Below the pieces are notes generated by a model. The model worked only from the letters and a program-made list of their open reading frames with translations. It ran no database searches and was not told where the DNA came from. From Exiguobacterium alkaliphilum 12/1 (GTDB lineage: Bacteria; Bacillota; Bacilli; Exiguobacteriales; Exiguobacteriaceae), in assembly GCF_000714435.1 (NCBI RefSeq), contig NZ_JJMW01000015.1:124001-188000 (forward strand): a stretch of 64,000 nt of DNA. Reading direction: 5' to 3'. The translations under genes were made by a program, and so were the position numbers. Below, in pieces: positions 5,567-40,725 of the stretch. Positions within the stretch are counted from its first letter, which is position 1; the number at the start of each line of letters is the position of its first letter.

Positions 5567-5808
5567 ATTGAACGATATACGATAGACGTTGAAAGAGCAT
5601 AGTACGCGAACTACCGAACGAGTACAGGGAGCATCGGCCGTGATTGGAAGCCGACGCCTCGGGCGGCGCCGAATTCACTCTGGAGTCGTGTTGGAGACAA
5701 CACCGGGTTGGCATCTCGATACCGATGCTCTCAAGTGGGCCTTCGGGCCAAGTAGGGTGGTACCGCGATGATTCGTCCCTTCAGTCAATGACTGAAGGGA
5801 CTTTTTTT
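5567..5808 (+). promoter_or_regulatory. Phenylalanine T-box riboswitch
   Basis: The T-box consensus AGTAGGGTGGTACCGCG is at 5751-5767, followed by a terminator stem (about 5776-5802) ending in a run of T. Stem I carries an AGTA motif near 5600, and the opposite strand of the specifier loop reads GAATTCACTCT. This places a TTC (Phe) specifier at 5674-5676, matching the downstream genes. Uncharged tRNA-Phe would stabilise the antiterminator and allow pheST transcription. Confidence 0.93.
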
Positions 5809-6861: not shown

Positions 6862-9234
6862 ATGTTACTATCAAAAAAATGGTTGAATCAATATATCGAC
6901 GTCTCGGATTTGAGCGGGCAACAGCTCGCCGATTTGATTACAAAGAATGGGATTGAAGTGGAAGGCGTGACGAATCGGGCCGAGGGATTGAGCGGTCTCG
7001 TCGTCGGACGCGTCTTGACGTGCGAAAAGCATCCGGAAGCGGATAAGTTGAACGTGACGACAGTCGACATCGGTGGTGACACGGCTCAAATCGTCTGTGG
7101 CGCCCCGAACGTCGCGGCCGGTCAACACGTCATCGTCGCAACGGTCGGCGCGACGCTACCTGGCTTGAAAATCAAGAAGGCCAAACTGCGCGGCGTCGAG
7201 TCACACGGAATGATTTGTTCGCTCGAGGAACTCGGATTCGAGAAGAAGCAAATCCGCGAAGACGAACAAGACGGAATCCATACGTTCCGTGAAGCGGTCG
7301 AAGTCGGTGCGGACGTCGTCAGTCTCCTTGACCTCGATGATGAGGTGCTCGAACTCGGCTTGACGCCGAACCGTTCGGACTGTCTCAGCCTCTATGGCAT
7401 CATTCACGAAGTCGCAGCGATTTTGGAGCGTCCGTACACGTTACCGGACACGGACGTCGCGGCAACTGGTCAAAATGACGTCACGGTCTCACTTGAGACA
7501 GACAACTGCCCGTATTACGCGACGCGACGCGTGGATGGGGTCAAAATCGAGGACTCGCCGCAATGGTTGAAGAACATCTTGATCGCAGAGGGCGTGCGCC
7601 CAATCAACAACGTCGTCGACGTGACGAACTATGTCATGCTCGAACTCGGTCAGCCGCTCCACGCGTTCGATGCGTCGAAGCTCGGCCGAGCCATCGGCGT
7701 CCGTCAAGCACACGACGGCGAGACGATTGTGACGCTTGACGATGTGACACGGACGCTCGATGAATCGATGATGGTCATCACGGACGGGAATGCGCCGGTC
7801 GCCATCGCCGGTGTCATGGGTGGTGCGAGCACCGAAGTCGACGCGACGACGACGAGTGTCGTGCTCGAATCCGCTTATTTCGTTCCAGCCTCGGTGCGGA
7901 AGACGAGTCGTGTGCTCGGGCTTCGTTCCGATTCGAGCGCTCGTTTCGAGAAAGGCGTCGACCCTGAGCGTGTCATGCGTGCGCTCGACCGGGCTGCGCA
8001 ATTGATTCAGTCGATCAGCGGTGGGACCGTCAGTGACGCCGTGACGTCCGGGGATATCCTGTCGGCCGAACGGACGATTGACGTATCGGTTGCCTACATC
8101 AATGAACGTCTCGGTATGGAGCTCGACCGGGAGACGATCGTCTCGATTTTGAACCGCCTCGGCCTCGACGTCGAAGGCGACGAACTGTTGACGGTACGCG
8201 TCCCGTCCCGTCGTCCCGACCTCGAGCTACCGGCGGACGTGACAGAAGAAGTTGCTCGTCTGTTCGGTTACGACAGCCTACCGTCGAAACTGCCGGCCTC
8301 GACGACGAAAGGTTACTTGCCGCATGTCAACGTCTTGCGCCGTCGTGTGCGCCGCATCCTCCAAGGTGCAGGGCTATCGCAAGCGATTACGTACTCGTTG
8401 ACGAGTGAGGCACACGCATCACGCTTCGGCGGCGAATCGGCGACAAAAGTACAATTGGCGATGCCGATGAGTGAAGAACGTACCGTGCTTCGGACATCAC
8501 TCGTCCCAGGACTCCTTGAAGCGGTGCGACATAACACGGCCCGTCAACAAGCGAACGTTGGCTTGTACGAAACGGGACGCGTATATGTGAACGTCGGGGA
8601 GACGTTACCGCTCGAGACAGAACGTGTGGCCGCTGTCGTGACAGGCCTTTGGTACGACCATCGTTCGCAAGGCACACGCGTCCCGGTCGACTATTTCGTC
8701 GCGAAAGGGATTGTCGACACGTTGGCACAGACGCTTCGCACCGAAGTCACGTATGAAGCCGCTTCGATTCCGGACATGCATCCGGGCCGCACGGCGAACG
8801 TCCTCGTTGACGGAGAGGTCGTCGGCTATGTCGGTCAAGTGCATCCAGGTGTATCGAAAGACATCTACGGTTTAAAAGAAGTATATGTCTTCGAACTCGA
8901 TGTCCAAGCGTTCGATACGGAAGCGACAGCGATTTATGAAGACGTGCCACGTTACCCGTCCATCACGCGAGACTTGGCACTCGTCTTAAACCGAGACATC
9001 CCAGCCGGTCACGTTGAGGCGACGATGAAACAAGCGGCCGGTCCGCTCTTGATTGACCTCGCCTTGTTCGATGTCTATACAGGTGAAAACGTCGGGGAAG
9101 ACGAGAAATCGCTCGCCTTTTCACTTAAATATCAAGATCCGACGCGCACGCTTCAAGATGAAGAAGTGACAGCGTCGTATGAGGCGATCATCGCCGCCGT
9201 CAAAGCGACACACGGCGCCGACGTTCGCGCTTAA
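6862..9234 (+). CDS. pheT: Phenylalanyl-tRNA synthetase beta subunit
   Basis: The 790-residue beta subunit of the heterotetramer. Domains in order: EMAP/tRNA-binding OB-fold (about 40-150, GLVVGRVLTCEKHPEADKL), B3/B4 editing domain that hydrolyses mischarged Tyr-tRNA-Phe (about 200-390, including GGASTEVDATT), B5 domains (about 400-480), catalytic-like core without active site (about 490-680) and the C-terminal FDX-ACB anticodon-binding domain (about 695-790, YPSITRDLALVLNRDIPAG). Length is usual. GGGGGACC precedes the ATG. A strong palindromic terminator follows. Confidence 0.98.
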   Translation: MLLSKKWLNQYIDVSDLSGQQLADLITKNGIEVEGVTNRAEGLSGLVVGRVLTCEKHPEADKLNVTTVDIGGDTAQIVCGAPNVAAGQHVIVATVGATLPGLKIKKAKLRGVESHGMICSLEELGFEKKQIREDEQDGIHTFREAVEVGADVVSLLDLDDEVLELGLTPNRSDCLSLYGIIHEVAAILERPYTLPDTDVAATGQNDVTVSLETDNCPYYATRRVDGVKIEDSPQWLKNILIAEGVRPINNVVDVTNYVMLELGQPLHAFDASKLGRAIGVRQAHDGETIVTLDDVTRTLDESMMVITDGNAPVAIAGVMGGASTEVDATTTSVVLESAYFVPASVRKTSRVLGLRSDSSARFEKGVDPERVMRALDRAAQLIQSISGGTVSDAVTSGDILSAERTIDVSVAYINERLGMELDRETIVSILNRLGLDVEGDELLTVRVPSRRPDLELPADVTEEVARLFGYDSLPSKLPASTTKGYLPHVNVLRRRVRRILQGAGLSQAITYSLTSEAHASRFGGESATKVQLAMPMSEERTVLRTSLVPGLLEAVRHNTARQQANVGLYETGRVYVNVGETLPLETERVAAVVTGLWYDHRSQGTRVPVDYFVAKGIVDTLAQTLRTEVTYEAASIPDMHPGRTANVLVDGEVVGYVGQVHPGVSKDIYGLKEVYVFELDVQAFDTEATAIYEDVPRYPSITRDLALVLNRDIPAGHVEATMKQAAGPLLIDLALFDVYTGENVGEDEKSLAFSLKYQDPTRTLQDEEVTASYEAIIAAVKATHGADVRA

Positions 9235-9237
9235 CGC

Positions 9238-9277
9238 AAAAACTGCGATTCCTAAGCTTAGGAATCGCAGTTTTTTA
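9238..9277. terminator. Bidirectional terminator between pheT and the EIIC-like gene
   Basis: A near-perfect 40-base palindrome centred on AAGCTT, with A and T runs at its ends. It includes the stop codon of the minus-strand gene (9275-9277), so it serves both converging genes. Confidence 0.9.
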
Positions 9278-10288
9278 TTGCACTTCGAGCGCCAAGTCAC
9301 CGAACTTCGTCCAACCGACGAGGCAAGTCACTTTATAAAGAAGGAACGTGATGACAGCAGGGAGCACGACGCCTGTGCCGACGAAGATGGCGAATGCCTC
9401 GGCGCCTTGAGCCGCCAAGATATTGAGTGGGGCGATCATCGAGTTCAAACCGAGACCGGCAATCTCGTACGGGACTTCGAGCGAGAACCAGAGCGTCGCA
9501 ATCGGGGCGCTAACCATCGCCGCGATAAAGGGTGGCATGACGACGCGCGGATTTTTGACGACGTTCGGGAACTGGACTTTCGGTGTGACGAAGAATGATG
9601 CGACCAAACCGCCTGGGTCGGTTTGACGATAGGCCATGAGTGTGAACCCGACGAATTGGGCGGTACATCCGATCAAGGCGGCAGCACTCGCGACGGGGTC
9701 GAGTTGGAGCGCGATGGCGAGCGCAGCCGATGAGGCCGGGGACATGAGCATGACGCTAAAGACGAGCGCGATGACGAGTGATGTGGCGACTGGTGACGTG
9801 TTGACTGATGCGGTGATGCTCGCACTGATGGAGTTGATGAGCGGTGTCGTAACGGCAGCTGCACCGACTCCGACGATTCCACCACCGAGAACGGCGGAAA
9901 CCGGGACGACCATCATGTCAAACTTCGTCTTGCCGAGAACGCGTTTTCCAATCCAGACAGCCGCAGCCGCTGCAATCAAAGCGCTGATCGGTTGACCCGG
10001 GACGAGCACGAGTCCACTTTCGGTCGGTTGGAGCGCGGCCCCGCCGACGGTTGCCGCAATCATCGAACTGAATAAAATGAGCGTGTTGCCGCCGAGTTGA
10101 TAGGCCACACCTGCGCCGAGGGCCGGGGCGAGTAATGACTTGGCGACTTGGCCAATCGTGACGAGCATGCCGAGCCCTGTCATGTTTCCAATCGTCTCAA
10201 TCAAGAGACCGACCCCGAGCGTGACGAGGACGGCGCTTGCCATCCCGGCTGATATTTTAATCATTCGATCCATTGCGTACTGTTTCAC
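9275..10288 (-). CDS. PTS EIIC-like membrane permease (PTS_EIIC_2 family)
   Basis: A hydrophobic protein of about 337 residues with roughly eight to ten membrane segments, rich in Gly, Ala and Val, and matching the PTS_EIIC_2 family (annotated as sugar PTS subunit IIC). No EIIA or EIIB partner is nearby, so phosphotransfer-linked sugar uptake is doubtful and the true substrate is unknown. The segment MAYRQTDPGGLVASFFVTPKVQFPNVVKNPR is a cytoplasmic loop typical of the group. Start choice: GAGGAG is followed by ATG-ATG-GAA-GTG; the GTG at 10288 has the best spacing, while ATG at 10294 or 10297 is possible. Expression is probably controlled by the upstream attenuator. Confidence 0.8.
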   Translation of the reverse strand: MKQYAMDRMIKISAGMASAVLVTLGVGLLIETIGNMTGLGMLVTIGQVAKSLLAPALGAGVAYQLGGNTLILFSSMIAATVGGAALQPTESGLVLVPGQPISALIAAAAAVWIGKRVLGKTKFDMMVVPVSAVLGGGIVGVGAAAVTTPLINSISASITASVNTSPVATSLVIALVFSVMLMSPASSAALAIALQLDPVASAAALIGCTAQFVGFTLMAYRQTDPGGLVASFFVTPKVQFPNVVKNPRVVMPPFIAAMVSAPIATLWFSLEVPYEIAGLGLNSMIAPLNILAAQGAEAFAIFVGTGVVLPAVITFLLYKVTCLVGWTKFGDLALEVQ

Positions 10289-10325
10289 TTCCATCATCTC
10301 CTCTGTCTGTTTTCCAATAAAAAAA

Positions 10326-10344
10326 CCTATCCGAATGGGATAGG
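10326..10344 (-). terminator. Attenuator terminator before the EIIC-like gene
   Basis: On the minus strand, CCTATCC-loop-GGATAGG is followed by seven T (complement at 10319-10325). It lies about 35 bases before the start codon, so it can only be an attenuator, not the end of an upstream gene. Confidence 0.75.
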
Positions 10345-10369
10345 CGCAAGTGGTTCACGGTGAGCGCCT
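10342..10369 (-). promoter_or_regulatory. Candidate antiterminator stem
   Basis: On the minus strand, AGGCGC (10364-10369) can pair with GCGCCT (10342-10347). The second arm shares three bases with the 5' arm of the terminator, so the two structures exclude each other. Confidence 0.5.
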
Positions 10370-10426
10370 CGTCCGAATCCATCGAAACAAGGGCCCAAAA
10401 ATTCGTCTCGGTTTACGAGTCGATTT

Positions 10427-10480
10427 TCAGTCCCTTCGTCGAATAATAATCAGCAGGCCGTGTTGTGTCTGTGTATGCAT
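10427..10480 (-). CDS. Leader peptide of a putative transcription attenuator
   Basis: An 18-codon open frame on the minus strand encodes MHTQTQHGLLIIIRRRD and ends with TGA. A strong ribosome site (GGAGGAG, complement at 10490-10496) stands nine bases before its ATG. Three consecutive ATT (Ile) codons follow two CTG (Leu) codons and precede three Arg codons (CGA CGA AGG). This resembles leader peptides of branched-chain amino acid attenuators, where the ribosome stalls when a charged tRNA is scarce. It is followed by a hairpin (10397-10427), the candidate antiterminator and the terminator. The sensed amino acid, Ile being the first guess, is inference. Confidence 0.65.
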   Translation of the reverse strand: MHTQTQHGLLIIIRRRD

Positions 10481-10502
10481 GGCGTTTCGCTCCTCCGTTT
10501 TG

Positions 10503-10518
10503 CTAAGATTTGTCTTAG
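10503..10518. repeat. Inverted repeat upstream of the leader peptide
   Basis: CTAAGATTTGTCTTAG is a perfect 6-4-6 inverted repeat located close to the expected promoter of the minus-strand leader; it may be an operator. Confidence 0.35.
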
Positions 10519-10582
10519 AGTAACATGACAATTTTCAATAATCAATATTTTCTGAAAATTTATTTGAAAAAAATTGGAACGA

Positions 10583-10625
10583 TAAAATAAAAAGAGGTAG
10601 CAGCTCCCAAATTGAGAGCGCTACC
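10583..10625 (-). terminator. Terminator of the alpha/beta hydrolase gene
   Basis: On the minus strand, GGTAGC-GCTC pairs with GAGC-GCTACC (one bulge) and is followed by a TCTTTTTATTTT tract. Confidence 0.75.
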
Positions 10626-10642
10626 ATTCGCCATACATAGCG

Positions 10643-11455
10643 TTATGAGGTGCTAGCCGTGAGCAAGCCAACTTGTTCATCAATAAAATTCATCGAGACG
10701 GTGTTAAAGATATCCGGCTGATCGACGTTGACGACGTGACCAGAATCCTCGACGACATGAACGTTCGCCGTCGGCTGGTGTTTCGCCGTCCGTTCGACCG
10801 CTTCGAGAAACATGTAATCCTCATCACCCATCACATAAAGAATCGGGACGGCCGTTTGAATCGATGAGAAATGTCGGAGCAACGGATTCATGTTCTCGGT
10901 CATCTTGAACCAACGAATGAACTCGCGTTGGCATAGGTTAGCCGCATCGCGGACAAACATCATCCGTGACTTCTTATGGCGTTTTTTCGGCAATAAAATC
11001 CATGCGAACAGTTGATAGAGCCACATGTACGGCACGAAGCTTTGCACGAGACTACCGAGACGAATCAACAACGTCGATCGAACGTTGAATTTGACGATCG
11101 CGCCCCCGAGCACGACCGATGCGATTCGCTCCGGGTGATGTTCGAACATCGCTTGAATGACGATCGTTCCAAGCGATAGGCCGACCATATGGCCTTTTTC
11201 GATGTTCAAGTGGTCCATCACTTCGACCACGTCTTCGACGACGACGTCGAGCGTATACGCGTTGAGCGGTTGCGTCAACGACTGCTCGGCATCATAAGAT
11301 CCGCCGTGGCCACGCAAGTCGAGCAACAGGACATTATATTTCTTTTTAAACGGTCGGATTTGACGATACCAGTGAGACAGGCTCCCCCCGGCGCCATGAA
11401 TGAAGATGACCCAAGGATGATCGTCGCTTAATGTGTACGTTTTATAATGCAACAT
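10643..11455 (-). CDS. Alpha/beta-hydrolase
   Basis: A 270-residue alpha/beta-hydrolase fold enzyme. The oxyanion region is FIHGAGGSLSHW, the nucleophile elbow is VGLSLGT (Ser in GxSxG), the acid is probably in YVMGDEDYMF, and the catalytic His is in DSGHVVNVDQP. A cap domain with hydrophobic and basic stretches (SFVPYMWLYQLFAWILLPKKRHKKSR) spans about residues 130-185 and may touch membranes or lipophilic substrates. GGAGG precedes the ATG. The substrate is unknown; esterase, lipase-like or haloperoxidase-like are all open. It stands alone between two minus-strand neighbours with its own terminator. Confidence 0.85.
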   Translation of the reverse strand: MLHYKTYTLSDDHPWVIFIHGAGGSLSHWYRQIRPFKKKYNVLLLDLRGHGGSYDAEQSLTQPLNAYTLDVVVEDVVEVMDHLNIEKGHMVGLSLGTIVIQAMFEHHPERIASVVLGGAIVKFNVRSTLLIRLGSLVQSFVPYMWLYQLFAWILLPKKRHKKSRMMFVRDAANLCQREFIRWFKMTENMNPLLRHFSSIQTAVPILYVMGDEDYMFLEAVERTAKHQPTANVHVVEDSGHVVNVDQPDIFNTVSMNFIDEQVGLLTASTS

Positions 11456-11526
11456 GAACGCTATCCTCCAAAAATTTTAAGTTCATTAAACCATAAAAAT
11501 AATATACCATATGTCGCTTGGAAGCA

Positions 11527-12435
11527 CTATCGTTTCAACTCGCTCAAGCGCAGCGCCTTCTTCGTGTTGGCGAAATGAACTTTGGCGATATCGTTCAACC
11601 GTTCGACACCATCACGTTTAATGAGCGAGGCGGCGACTTGGTCGACTTTGGCTCCCGCTCCTTTGGGCAACGTGAGGCCGACGGTTTGACTTAATTTGTC
11701 CATTTCTTTCAAAAAGAACGCGCGTGCCAAAATCGAGGCGGCTGCGACGGCGACGTGTAACCCTTCCGCTTTCGTCGAGAAATAGACGTCAGCATTGACG
11801 ATGTTTCGCTCATGGCTCAGATGCTTGTAATAGACGTTCTTTTCCGCGAACTGATCGATTAAAATCGCATCCGGCTTCTCCTCGAGTTTTTCGAGAAGGG
11901 CCGACAAGGCGGCGTTATGGGCGATGGCCGTCATCTTCCCTTGCGTCATCGTCTTTTGCATCTTGTTGTACATCGGGTTATGGAGCGTCGCCTTCTGATA
12001 CGGAATCGTCACATGTAAATCACGGGCGATTCGTTTGATCTCAGGGTCGGACAACAGTTTCGAGTCTTTGACGCCTAGTTCTTTGACGAGGTCGATCTTA
12101 TCTTTCGAAACGTAAGCGGCGACGATGACGAGCGGACCGAAATAGTCTCCTTTTCCGACTTCGTCACTGCCGACGACCGACCAATTTGAAAAACCGTCTG
12201 GTAGTGTCGAGGCAGCCGCTACTTTTTTCGCCTCCGGCGTCCCCCATTTTGCTGCCTCCGTTTCGGCCGCCTGGCCTTGGAACATGACTTTACCCGAATT
12301 GTAAACGGTAATCACGCACGAAGGTGTTTTCGCACTGAATTTGGCGTAAGGCGGCGGATTGACCGCGTAGGGTGAATAACGCTCGATTAAGGCGTTTTGC
12401 GCCTCAATCGATAATTTGATGACTTGATTGCCCAA
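11527..12435 (-). CDS. rnhC: Ribonuclease HIII
   Basis: RNase HIII (302 aa) cuts the RNA strand of RNA-DNA hybrids and helps remove R-loops and primers. The N-terminal TBP-like substrate-binding domain (about 1-75, CVITVYNSGKVMFQG) precedes the catalytic domain, which opens with GSDEVGKGDYFGPLV carrying the first acidic residues; the others are in ELGVKDSK and DQFAEKN. TTG at 12435 gives the start MGNQVIKLS, which aligns with Bacillus RnhC; AAAGGA lies about ten bases upstream. Longer frames run into the promoter region. In B. subtilis rnhC also follows pheT, but here it is separated and monocistronic. Confidence 0.93.
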   Translation of the reverse strand: MGNQVIKLSIEAQNALIERYSPYAVNPPPYAKFSAKTPSCVITVYNSGKVMFQGQAAETEAAKWGTPEAKKVAAASTLPDGFSNWSVVGSDEVGKGDYFGPLVIVAAYVSKDKIDLVKELGVKDSKLLSDPEIKRIARDLHVTIPYQKATLHNPMYNKMQKTMTQGKMTAIAHNAALSALLEKLEEKPDAILIDQFAEKNVYYKHLSHERNIVNADVYFSTKAEGLHVAVAAASILARAFFLKEMDKLSQTVGLTLPKGAGAKVDQVAASLIKRDGVERLNDIAKVHFANTKKALRLSELKR

Positions 12436-12490
12436 CAGGAGCACTTCCTTTCTCTCTCGCAAATTAATTTTACATTTTTTTTGTATATTT

Positions 12491-12517
12491 TGAAACCAGT
12501 GCACCGGCTTTTCCGTA
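12491..12517 (+). promoter_or_regulatory. Sigma-W-like promoter of the floT operon
   Basis: TGAAAC at 12491-12496 and CGTA at 12514-12517 with a 17-base spacer match the ECF sigma-W consensus. The same arrangement precedes the floA operon at 46576. It lies on the opposite strand just upstream of rnhC. Confidence 0.75.
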
Positions 12518-12560
12518 TGAAACAGTGAGTCGAGTAGAAGTGAAATGAGGTGAGGCGAAA

Positions 12561-12962
12561 ATGTGGTGGCGCGATGACACGGAGCAAGATGAGGCGGAAT
12601 CCCTCTATAAACAAATTCTCGAGTTAGAATCGAGAATCGCCAAACTAGTGGCCCATCAAGTGCGGGTGCGTCGTCTACTCATGCAGGAGTCGTCGGAGAC
12701 GACGGCAGAGCAAATCATTACGTTGCAGGCGGAAGTCGATCATTATTTGACGTTATTGCGGCAAGAGCGTGTGGAGGCCGTCGATCGCTACGATCGATTG
12801 CGGTTCGAGCAGACGTTAGGGCGCGTCCGTCAATCTGTTGAGCAACCGACCCGTCCGCTCTCGGAATGGGACACGATTGAACGGGCGCTCGCGCTTGAAG
12901 TCGAGCATTTGCGCCGCGTGCTCGCCTACGAGCATGAACGCCGAAGCGAGGAGGGGTGGTAA
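12561..12962 (+). CDS. Coiled-coil protein in the floT operon
   Basis: A 133-residue soluble protein, almost entirely charged helix: residues 8-40 (EQDEAESLYKQILELESRIA) and 50-90 show heptad-like spacing, and a second helical part covers 98-133. It has no signal peptide or membrane segment. I do not recognise a family. Its stop codon overlaps the ATG of the NfeD gene (TAATG), so it is translationally coupled to an NfeD-flotillin pair and shares their stress promoter. It may be a cytoplasmic partner of the flotillin scaffold; this is inference from context only. AGGTGAGG supports the ATG at 12561. Confidence 0.7.
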   Translation: MWWRDDTEQDEAESLYKQILELESRIAKLVAHQVRVRRLLMQESSETTAEQIITLQAEVDHYLTLLRQERVEAVDRYDRLRFEQTLGRVRQSVEQPTRPLSEWDTIERALALEVEHLRRVLAYEHERRSEEGW

Positions 12963-40398: not shown

Positions 40399-40725
40399 AA
40401 TAAATCCTCCATTCGTTTTCTAAAGATTTAATCCATTTGTGGAAAATCATAGCGGAATAACGATTTAATTTCCTTTTATTTTTTAAAAATCAGGGTAATG
40501 AATTTGAACAAATTAAAAAATTCTGACAATTACTTTTGTCCTAACGACTCATAATTGGATGGGTCTTTTTTCGTTTTGAGACATCGATTTATAAATAATG
40601 CGGCTGATTGAGACGAGAGCGATACAATTCACTTGAGATTTTTCAAAAAAGTTGATAAAGTCTGGGTATAGAATTCATATAAAACATATCAACATAGTCG
40701 GAATAAAGAAGAATGAGGTGGACCA
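40399..40725. other. AT-rich divergent intergenic region
   Basis: A 327-base spacer between the divergent subtilase and methyltransferase genes, far more AT-rich than the coding sequence around it. It must hold both promoters. I see a moderate plus-strand promoter (40652-40680) and no convincing minus-strand one. No S-box, T-box, small ORF with a ribosome site, or terminator is evident. Confidence 0.6.
40652..40680 (+). promoter_or_regulatory. Possible promoter of the methyltransferase-luxS-mccAB operon
   Basis: TTGATA at 40652-40657, 17 bases, TCATAT at 40675-40680. The AT-rich GGAATAAAG sequence downstream could form part of a repressor site, but I cannot assign it. Confidence 0.4.

Follow-up and report, generated by a model that had tools for sequence, protein, structure and literature searches.

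Why should a gene annotated as a sugar PTS subunit be preceded by what looks like an amino-acid attenuator? The question arises from a 64,000-nucleotide (64-kb) stretch of the Exiguobacterium alkaliphilum 12/1 genome, here called the window, in which a permease of 340 aa is encoded on the minus strand (9275..10297). The protein matches PF13303 (PTS_EIIC_2) over nearly its whole length, with 285.5 bits against a Pfam cut-off of 28.9, and its predicted fold matches the PTS glucose EIIC; a sequence search of the PDB gave no match, and neither did a search of the defence library. The genes adjoining it are pheT, an alpha/beta hydrolase gene and a ribonuclease HII-family gene, with no PTS gene (EIIA or EIIB) among these adjacent genes. 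We take PF13303 to be the PfoR-like family, for which no function was found in the open-access literature. The regulatory role once assigned to C. perfringens pfoR has been contradicted by mutation, according to a review (PMC4448169).

Because the motif GAGGAG touches the ATG at 10297, translation of the permease may instead begin at a GTG nine bases further in (10288), and relatives vary at this point. The genome holds three further PF13303 paralogues (C44:30886, C15:58708 and C19:330122), all of which are without an attenuator or a CodY-type box. The permease and pheT genes converge on a symmetric hairpin (9235-9280) that looks like a two-way terminator. Within the assembly, contigs C25 and C70 (85,324 and 85,323 bases) carry matches one base apart, and the listed contamination is 7.58%; the assembly may hold duplicates of this kind.

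Leader ORF and upstream signals

Upstream of the permease, a short ORF of 17 codons, MHTQTQHGLLIIIRRRD (10427..10480, minus strand), was read from the sequence together with its relatives. It follows a ribosome site, GGAGGAG, from which translation is predicted. Codons 9-17 are CTG CTG ATT ATT ATT CGA CGA AGG GAC, with Leu9-Ile13 at 10456-10442 and Arg14-16 at 10441-10433, and are followed by the stop codon TGA (10429-10427). This agrees with a sequence-only reading of the locus, which had described a 17-residue minus-strand leader peptide with its own ribosome site and three ATT codons ahead of three Arg codons. Among 88 SD-preceded ORFs of 10-30 codons in the 64-kb window, the leader is the only one with five consecutive I/L/V codons; shuffled windows hold a mean of 0.53 such runs each (n=30 shuffles).

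A probable promoter (10517..10545, minus strand), picked out by eye and with the help of related upstream regions, comprises TTGATT (10545-10540), a 17-nt spacer and TACTCT (10522-10517), with TG before TACTCT; it is absent from the output of a consensus promoter scan. Its likely -35 is abutted by a CodY-type box, AATTTTCAGAAAATA (10546..10560, minus strand), which has one mismatch to AATTTTCWGAAAATT, taken here as the CodY box consensus. This is the only CodY-type match with two or fewer mismatches in the 64 kb, against an expected 0.12. The window's genome also encodes CodY, and with a box at the promoter the permease would belong to the CodY regulon, the box being a predicted site of CodY binding.

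Alternative RNA structures ahead of the permease

Five segments of the leader RNA, all on the minus strand, can adopt two alternative pairings, either 1:2 with 3:4 (read-through) or 2:3 with 4:5 (termination). Segment 1, AGGGACTGAAAA (10424..10435), comprises the end of the leader ORF and its stop, and pairs with segment 2, TTTTTGGGCCCTT (10389..10401), which can pair with segment 1 or with segment 3. Segment 3, AGGCGCTCA (10361..10369), is the 5' arm of the antiterminator, and segment 4, GCGCCT (10342..10347), is its 3' arm, so that the antiterminator stem joins AGGCGC (10369-10364) to GCGCCT (10347-10342). The intrinsic terminator, CCTATCC-CATTC-GGATAGG followed by T7 (10319..10344), was found from the sequence and by a terminator scan; its arms lie at 10344-10338 and 10332-10326 and its T7 at 10325-10319, and its 5' arm overlaps segment 4.

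The AGGCGC/GCGCCT stem, and the overlapping, mutually exclusive terminator with seven T before the permease, had both been described in the sequence-only reading and are borne out by this overlap of arms. The hairpin that it placed at 10397-10427 is also present, although those limits are too small, the arms being 10424-10435 and 10389-10401. Helix 2:3 (10390-10397 with 10361-10369), which turned out to be the best supported helix, was overlooked.

Taken from the single sequence, the evidence for an attenuator is suggestive only. The terminator before the permease has the longest stem among four terminator-like sites in 9000-12600, where shuffling gives a mean of 4.0 sites. Folding of the 203-nt region gives an MFE of -54.9 kcal/mol (z -2.2), which four of 200 shuffles equal.

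Conservation of the leader and the RNA element

By a genome-contig scan we gathered 42 loci homologous to the permease locus, the closest named ones of which encode a permease 98% identical to that of the window. A leader that combines an SD with a reading frame carrying this codon zone, the features sought by the calling script, is present at 30 of the 42: all 22 Exiguobacterium loci, six Sporolactobacillus loci, and one each in Peribacillus asahii and Weizmannia acidilactici. At the other 12 no leader was called, and the retrained covariance model R2 (see below) gave nothing convincing there, its best match (E 0.49) lying behind the gene. Endings of the leaders read GLLIIIRRRD, SLLIIIRLRD, GRLIILCSRD, ALLIILKKRD, LIRIILRLRT and NIIILLLC, and the longest I/L/V run in 16 leaders chosen from the 30 is 3-6 codons. 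In the order Exiguobacteriales, the element was detected in 35 of 38 genomes searched, many of the 35 sharing their species with the loci used for training. The permease is on the same stretch as the element at all 30 loci inspected, and the other five adjoin by coordinates. The three genomes of the order that lack the element have two PF13303 genes each, which are not of the window's type by score and profile range.

Helix 2:3 was proposed unprompted by RNAalifold from 17 elements. We then see, in an alignment of 22 elements (the window, 15 other Exiguobacterium permease elements and six brnQ copies, with eight other-genus elements left out), that all of its 176 cells are paired (100%), and that this pairing is lost when the partner segment is slid along the alignment. 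The helix has 15 cells changed on both sides against a shuffled mean of 4.8, a count reached by none of 500 shuffles and inflated by the relatedness of the sequences; measures that count pairs or types were equalled within the shuffles (133 and 497 of 500). Helix 1:2 is paired in 95.9% of cells in the 22 sequences and is mostly invariant, while helix 3:4 is paired in 99.2%, with one of its six pairs varying (CG 16, UA 4, UG 1, other 1). As their arms are nearly invariant, these two helices yield little covariation. Conservation of the peptide and of the stems in relatives was the check that the sequence-only reading had asked for, and both were found, the leader at 30/42 loci and helix 2:3 paired in 22/22 elements. 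Compared with the single-sequence evidence, we regard this conservation of leader and element as decisive.

Conserved hairpins upstream of a terminator could equally be expected of a ligand-binding riboswitch or a T-box acting in place of a translation-coupled attenuator. We consider this highly improbable, since all 30 leaders combine an SD with a reading frame that keeps the codon zone, as the script required, and the leader of locus L006 keeps its frame intact with TAA replacing the TGA stop. In addition, the window gave no Rfam match at cut-off, and its leader gave no match to the T-box family (RF00230) at E 10.

Predicted folding by ribosome position

The two pairings suggest how a translation-coupled switch would work. 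With branched-chain amino acids (BCAA) plentiful, the ribosome would reach the stop codon and cover segment 1 (10424-10435), leaving segment 2 free to pair with segment 3; once 2:3 had formed, segment 4 would join the terminator (4:5) and transcription would stop. A shortage of Leu or Ile would make the ribosome pause at codons 9-12, and segment 1, left free, would trap segment 2, so that 3:4 would pair, the terminator would be blocked and the permease would be made. If translation were absent, the Leu codons (GCCT) could pair with segment 3, also favouring termination; this pairing is partly kept among relatives, its last pair being standard in 11/17.

Partial transcripts were folded with the ribosome footprint masked at each leader codon. 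For the window RNA, A-site codons Leu9 to Ile12 gave 0.93-0.99 for 1:2 and 0.46-0.84 for 3:4, and at every later codon (Ile13, the Arg codons and onwards to the stop) 2:3 reached 0.97-1.00 and 3:4 was 0.00. Because the fold switches between Ile12 and Ile13, the codons read would be those for Leu and the first Ile residues, not those for Arg. With segment 3 just out, six of 13 sequences have 1:2 favoured by a first-Ile pause and 2:3 favoured at the stop, and with segment 4 out the contrast in 3:4 between positions is seen in four of the 13; at L011, L014, L017 and L024, 3:4 wins at either ribosome position, and at L002 it does not form. In the full-length window RNA the terminator wins at every ribosome position, and read-through would therefore have to depend on the kinetics of co-transcriptional folding.

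The three Arg codons of the window leader might be taken for the sensor, which would make this an arginine attenuator (or, by analogous codons, one for His or Thr). We find such a reading scarcely credible. Ile and Leu occur in 16/16 of the chosen leaders, against 14 for Arg, 11 for His and 12 for Thr, and the position of the Arg codons is implausible for a sensor, as pauses there are predicted to cause termination in the window. The same codons bear on the idea of an antibiotic-sensing leader, in which macrolide-type arrest at an Arg-x-Arg motif would drive read-through, and which we judge to be very unlikely. The motif R/K-x-R/K is found in nine of the 16 chosen leaders and is missing from seven. 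An Arg-Leu-Arg motif is described for an HflX leader (PMC8632094), and in two Sporolactobacillus leaders (L024 and L025) a pause at Arg21 is predicted still to allow 1:2. In the window, a modelled Arg pause covers segment 1 and predicts the OFF state. The genes downstream of the element are the permease, brnQ and ilvD, with no resistance genes among them.

For the BCAA attenuator, the layout proposed in the sequence-only reading stands, in that a translatable ORF, a conserved codon run and a mutually exclusive terminator and antiterminator are all present. It is highly probable that the element is an attenuator that would switch in response to BCAA supply.

Copies of the element before brnQ and ilvD

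A covariance model trained only on permease leaders (R1) finds one copy of the element in the window's own genome, where brnQ has a two-mismatch CodY-type box and no R1 match. In 11 of 19 sister-genus genomes R1 finds a second copy, and all 11 of these adjoin brnQ (PF05525) by coordinates. Leaders are present at the six brnQ copies inspected (e.g. MTHATLIQERLIVIKSRD), and the one brnQ product of the 11 that was checked with Pfam matches PF05525 with 442.9 bits. A second R1 match in genome G011, with E 0.054, was attributed to chance.

Across 398 genomes of the class, R1 matched 49, of which 35 are in the order and 14 outside it. Thirteen of the latter were inspected (G180 being the exception): three precede ilvD and have leaders, in three genomes of one family (E 5e-5 to 6e-3); two precede PF13303 (G374 and G158); one precedes ilvD with no recognised leader; and seven have unrelated downstream genes and were taken as chance. 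The one ilvD match without a recognised leader peptide, L094 (G331:C1:1705668-1705779), is weak and lies 286 nt before the gene, with a terminator.

The model was then retrained with the brnQ and ilvD copies added (R2), and matched 62 of the 398 genomes: 35 in the order, G158 and G374 (both PF13303), and 25 in one other family. Three of these 25 were in the training set, and we inspected 20 of the 22 others. Each of the 20 has ilvD in the same orientation, starting some 25-42 nt after the element, and a script picked out an I/L/V-rich leader in every one. Every inspected R2 match thus precedes PF13303, brnQ or ilvD, with two matches uninspected. As relatives of the switch stand before known BCAA genes, the transporter probably serves BCAA supply. 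The window holds a weak second R2 match at 40462-40570 (+; 17.2 bits, E 0.33), which is probably due to chance.

Comparison with known leaders

Staphylococcal ilvD (ilv-leu) is controlled by a leader-peptide attenuator together with CodY, and the study argues mainly for Leu control (PMC5794164). Our element resembles the staphylococcal one in its SD-led short Ile/Leu-rich ORF, its terminator before the gene and CodY as a second layer, and the detection of ilvD leaders by the permease-trained R1 links the two. It differs from the leader of that biosynthetic operon in having a permease as its target, another peptide tail and a covarying 2:3 helix.

For the Listeria rli60 ilv-leu attenuator, control by attenuation plus CodY was shown by reporters and mutants (PMC5864092). 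Features in common with rli60 (RF02414) are a leader with BCAA codons, an AAGGACU... hairpin after the codons (in the Rfam consensus) and the combination of CodY with an attenuator. Of 4227 families, RF02414 scored highest in bits with the leaders of both the window (22.3) and locus L037 (21.6). We nevertheless rejected membership, as 22.3 bits compares with a gathering score of 60; the target also differs. For the window leader, U6 gave a lower E-value (0.56) than rli60 (0.74), and the rli60 search also gave matches at E up to 10 in 5/14 control genomes, including B. subtilis.

CodY-type boxes, T-boxes and BCAA synthesis genes

All 22 Exiguobacterium loci have a CodY-type box with one or two mismatches whose end lies 58-72 nt upstream of the leader ATG; the background is 142 in 8400 random 200-nt windows. 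Elsewhere the box has two mismatches in Peribacillus and three in the six Sporolactobacillus loci, and there is none at the Weizmannia locus. Two of the 12 leader-less loci have a box with two mismatches.

In Clostridium sp. C8-1-8, the permease orthologue (56% identity) is preceded by a T-box (RF00230; 91.3 bits against a cut-off of 93), a system that differs from ours in reading tRNA directly. Its specifier columns give AUC (Ile), with an insertion beside them in the alignment, and in the same columns the pheS T-box of the window, used as a control, reads UUC (Phe). That control lies at 5580-5783 (+) and scores 72.8 bits; it was missed in the standard scan, which applies the Rfam gathering score of 93. 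A T-box regular expression applied to 31 clostridial loci was positive at Clostridium sp. C8-1-8 only. Three of the 31 clostridial proteins are close orthologues (54-56% identity), and the other two are without a T-box. Clostridial PF13303 proteins (L117-L146) are mostly about 30% identical to the window's protein or less, which indicates that the family holds several distinct clades.

Models of IlvD and of IlvC each detected nothing in the 38 genomes of the order, and each was positive in 14/14 controls. Judging from these gene models, bacteria of the order probably cannot synthesise branched-chain amino acids themselves, in which case a switch of this kind would naturally act on uptake genes.

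Might the attenuator respond to BCAA and the permease still carry a sugar, a peptide or an unrelated nutrient, simply as one component of a broader starvation response? In favour are the EIIC-like character of PF13303 and of the predicted fold, whose best match is glucose EIIC, and the many non-BCAA genes in CodY regulons. We regard this as rather unlikely, since a Leu/Ile attenuator plus an Ile T-box in one Clostridium is more specific than CodY, the inspected R2 matches are confined to the three gene types named above, and the genes adjacent to the permease include none of the PTS.

Conclusions and implications

Very probably, the best explanation of the whole is a BCAA-responsive leader attenuator that would control a BCAA-related permease. 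The earlier guess at a branched-chain substrate gains support from the element before brnQ and ilvD, the CodY-type box, the undetected IlvD and IlvC, and the one clostridial Ile T-box, transport itself being a prediction from this context. On balance it seems likely that the substrate is BCAA-related, for example a branched-chain 2-keto acid, and that the permease would import it. More tentatively, and with some doubt, the PF13303 clade may be an unrecognised importer of BCAA or keto acids, with an EIIC fold but without phosphotransfer partners, joined to the BCAA regulon in Bacillota by a CodY box, a leader-peptide attenuator and an Ile T-box.

Leader-peptide attenuation is a mechanism type already known; it is the target that is new, together with the function implied for an orphan family, and no report of a PF13303 permease under such control was found in the open-access literature. 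With neither IlvD nor IlvC detected in Exiguobacterium, it would seem that this genus has retained the attenuator for uptake and not for synthesis. The finding ties ilvD, brnQ and the permease to one leader-RNA family, a possible marker for further BCAA genes. It also offers a testable function for a family of orphan membrane proteins whose sole annotation is that of a sugar PTS subunit.
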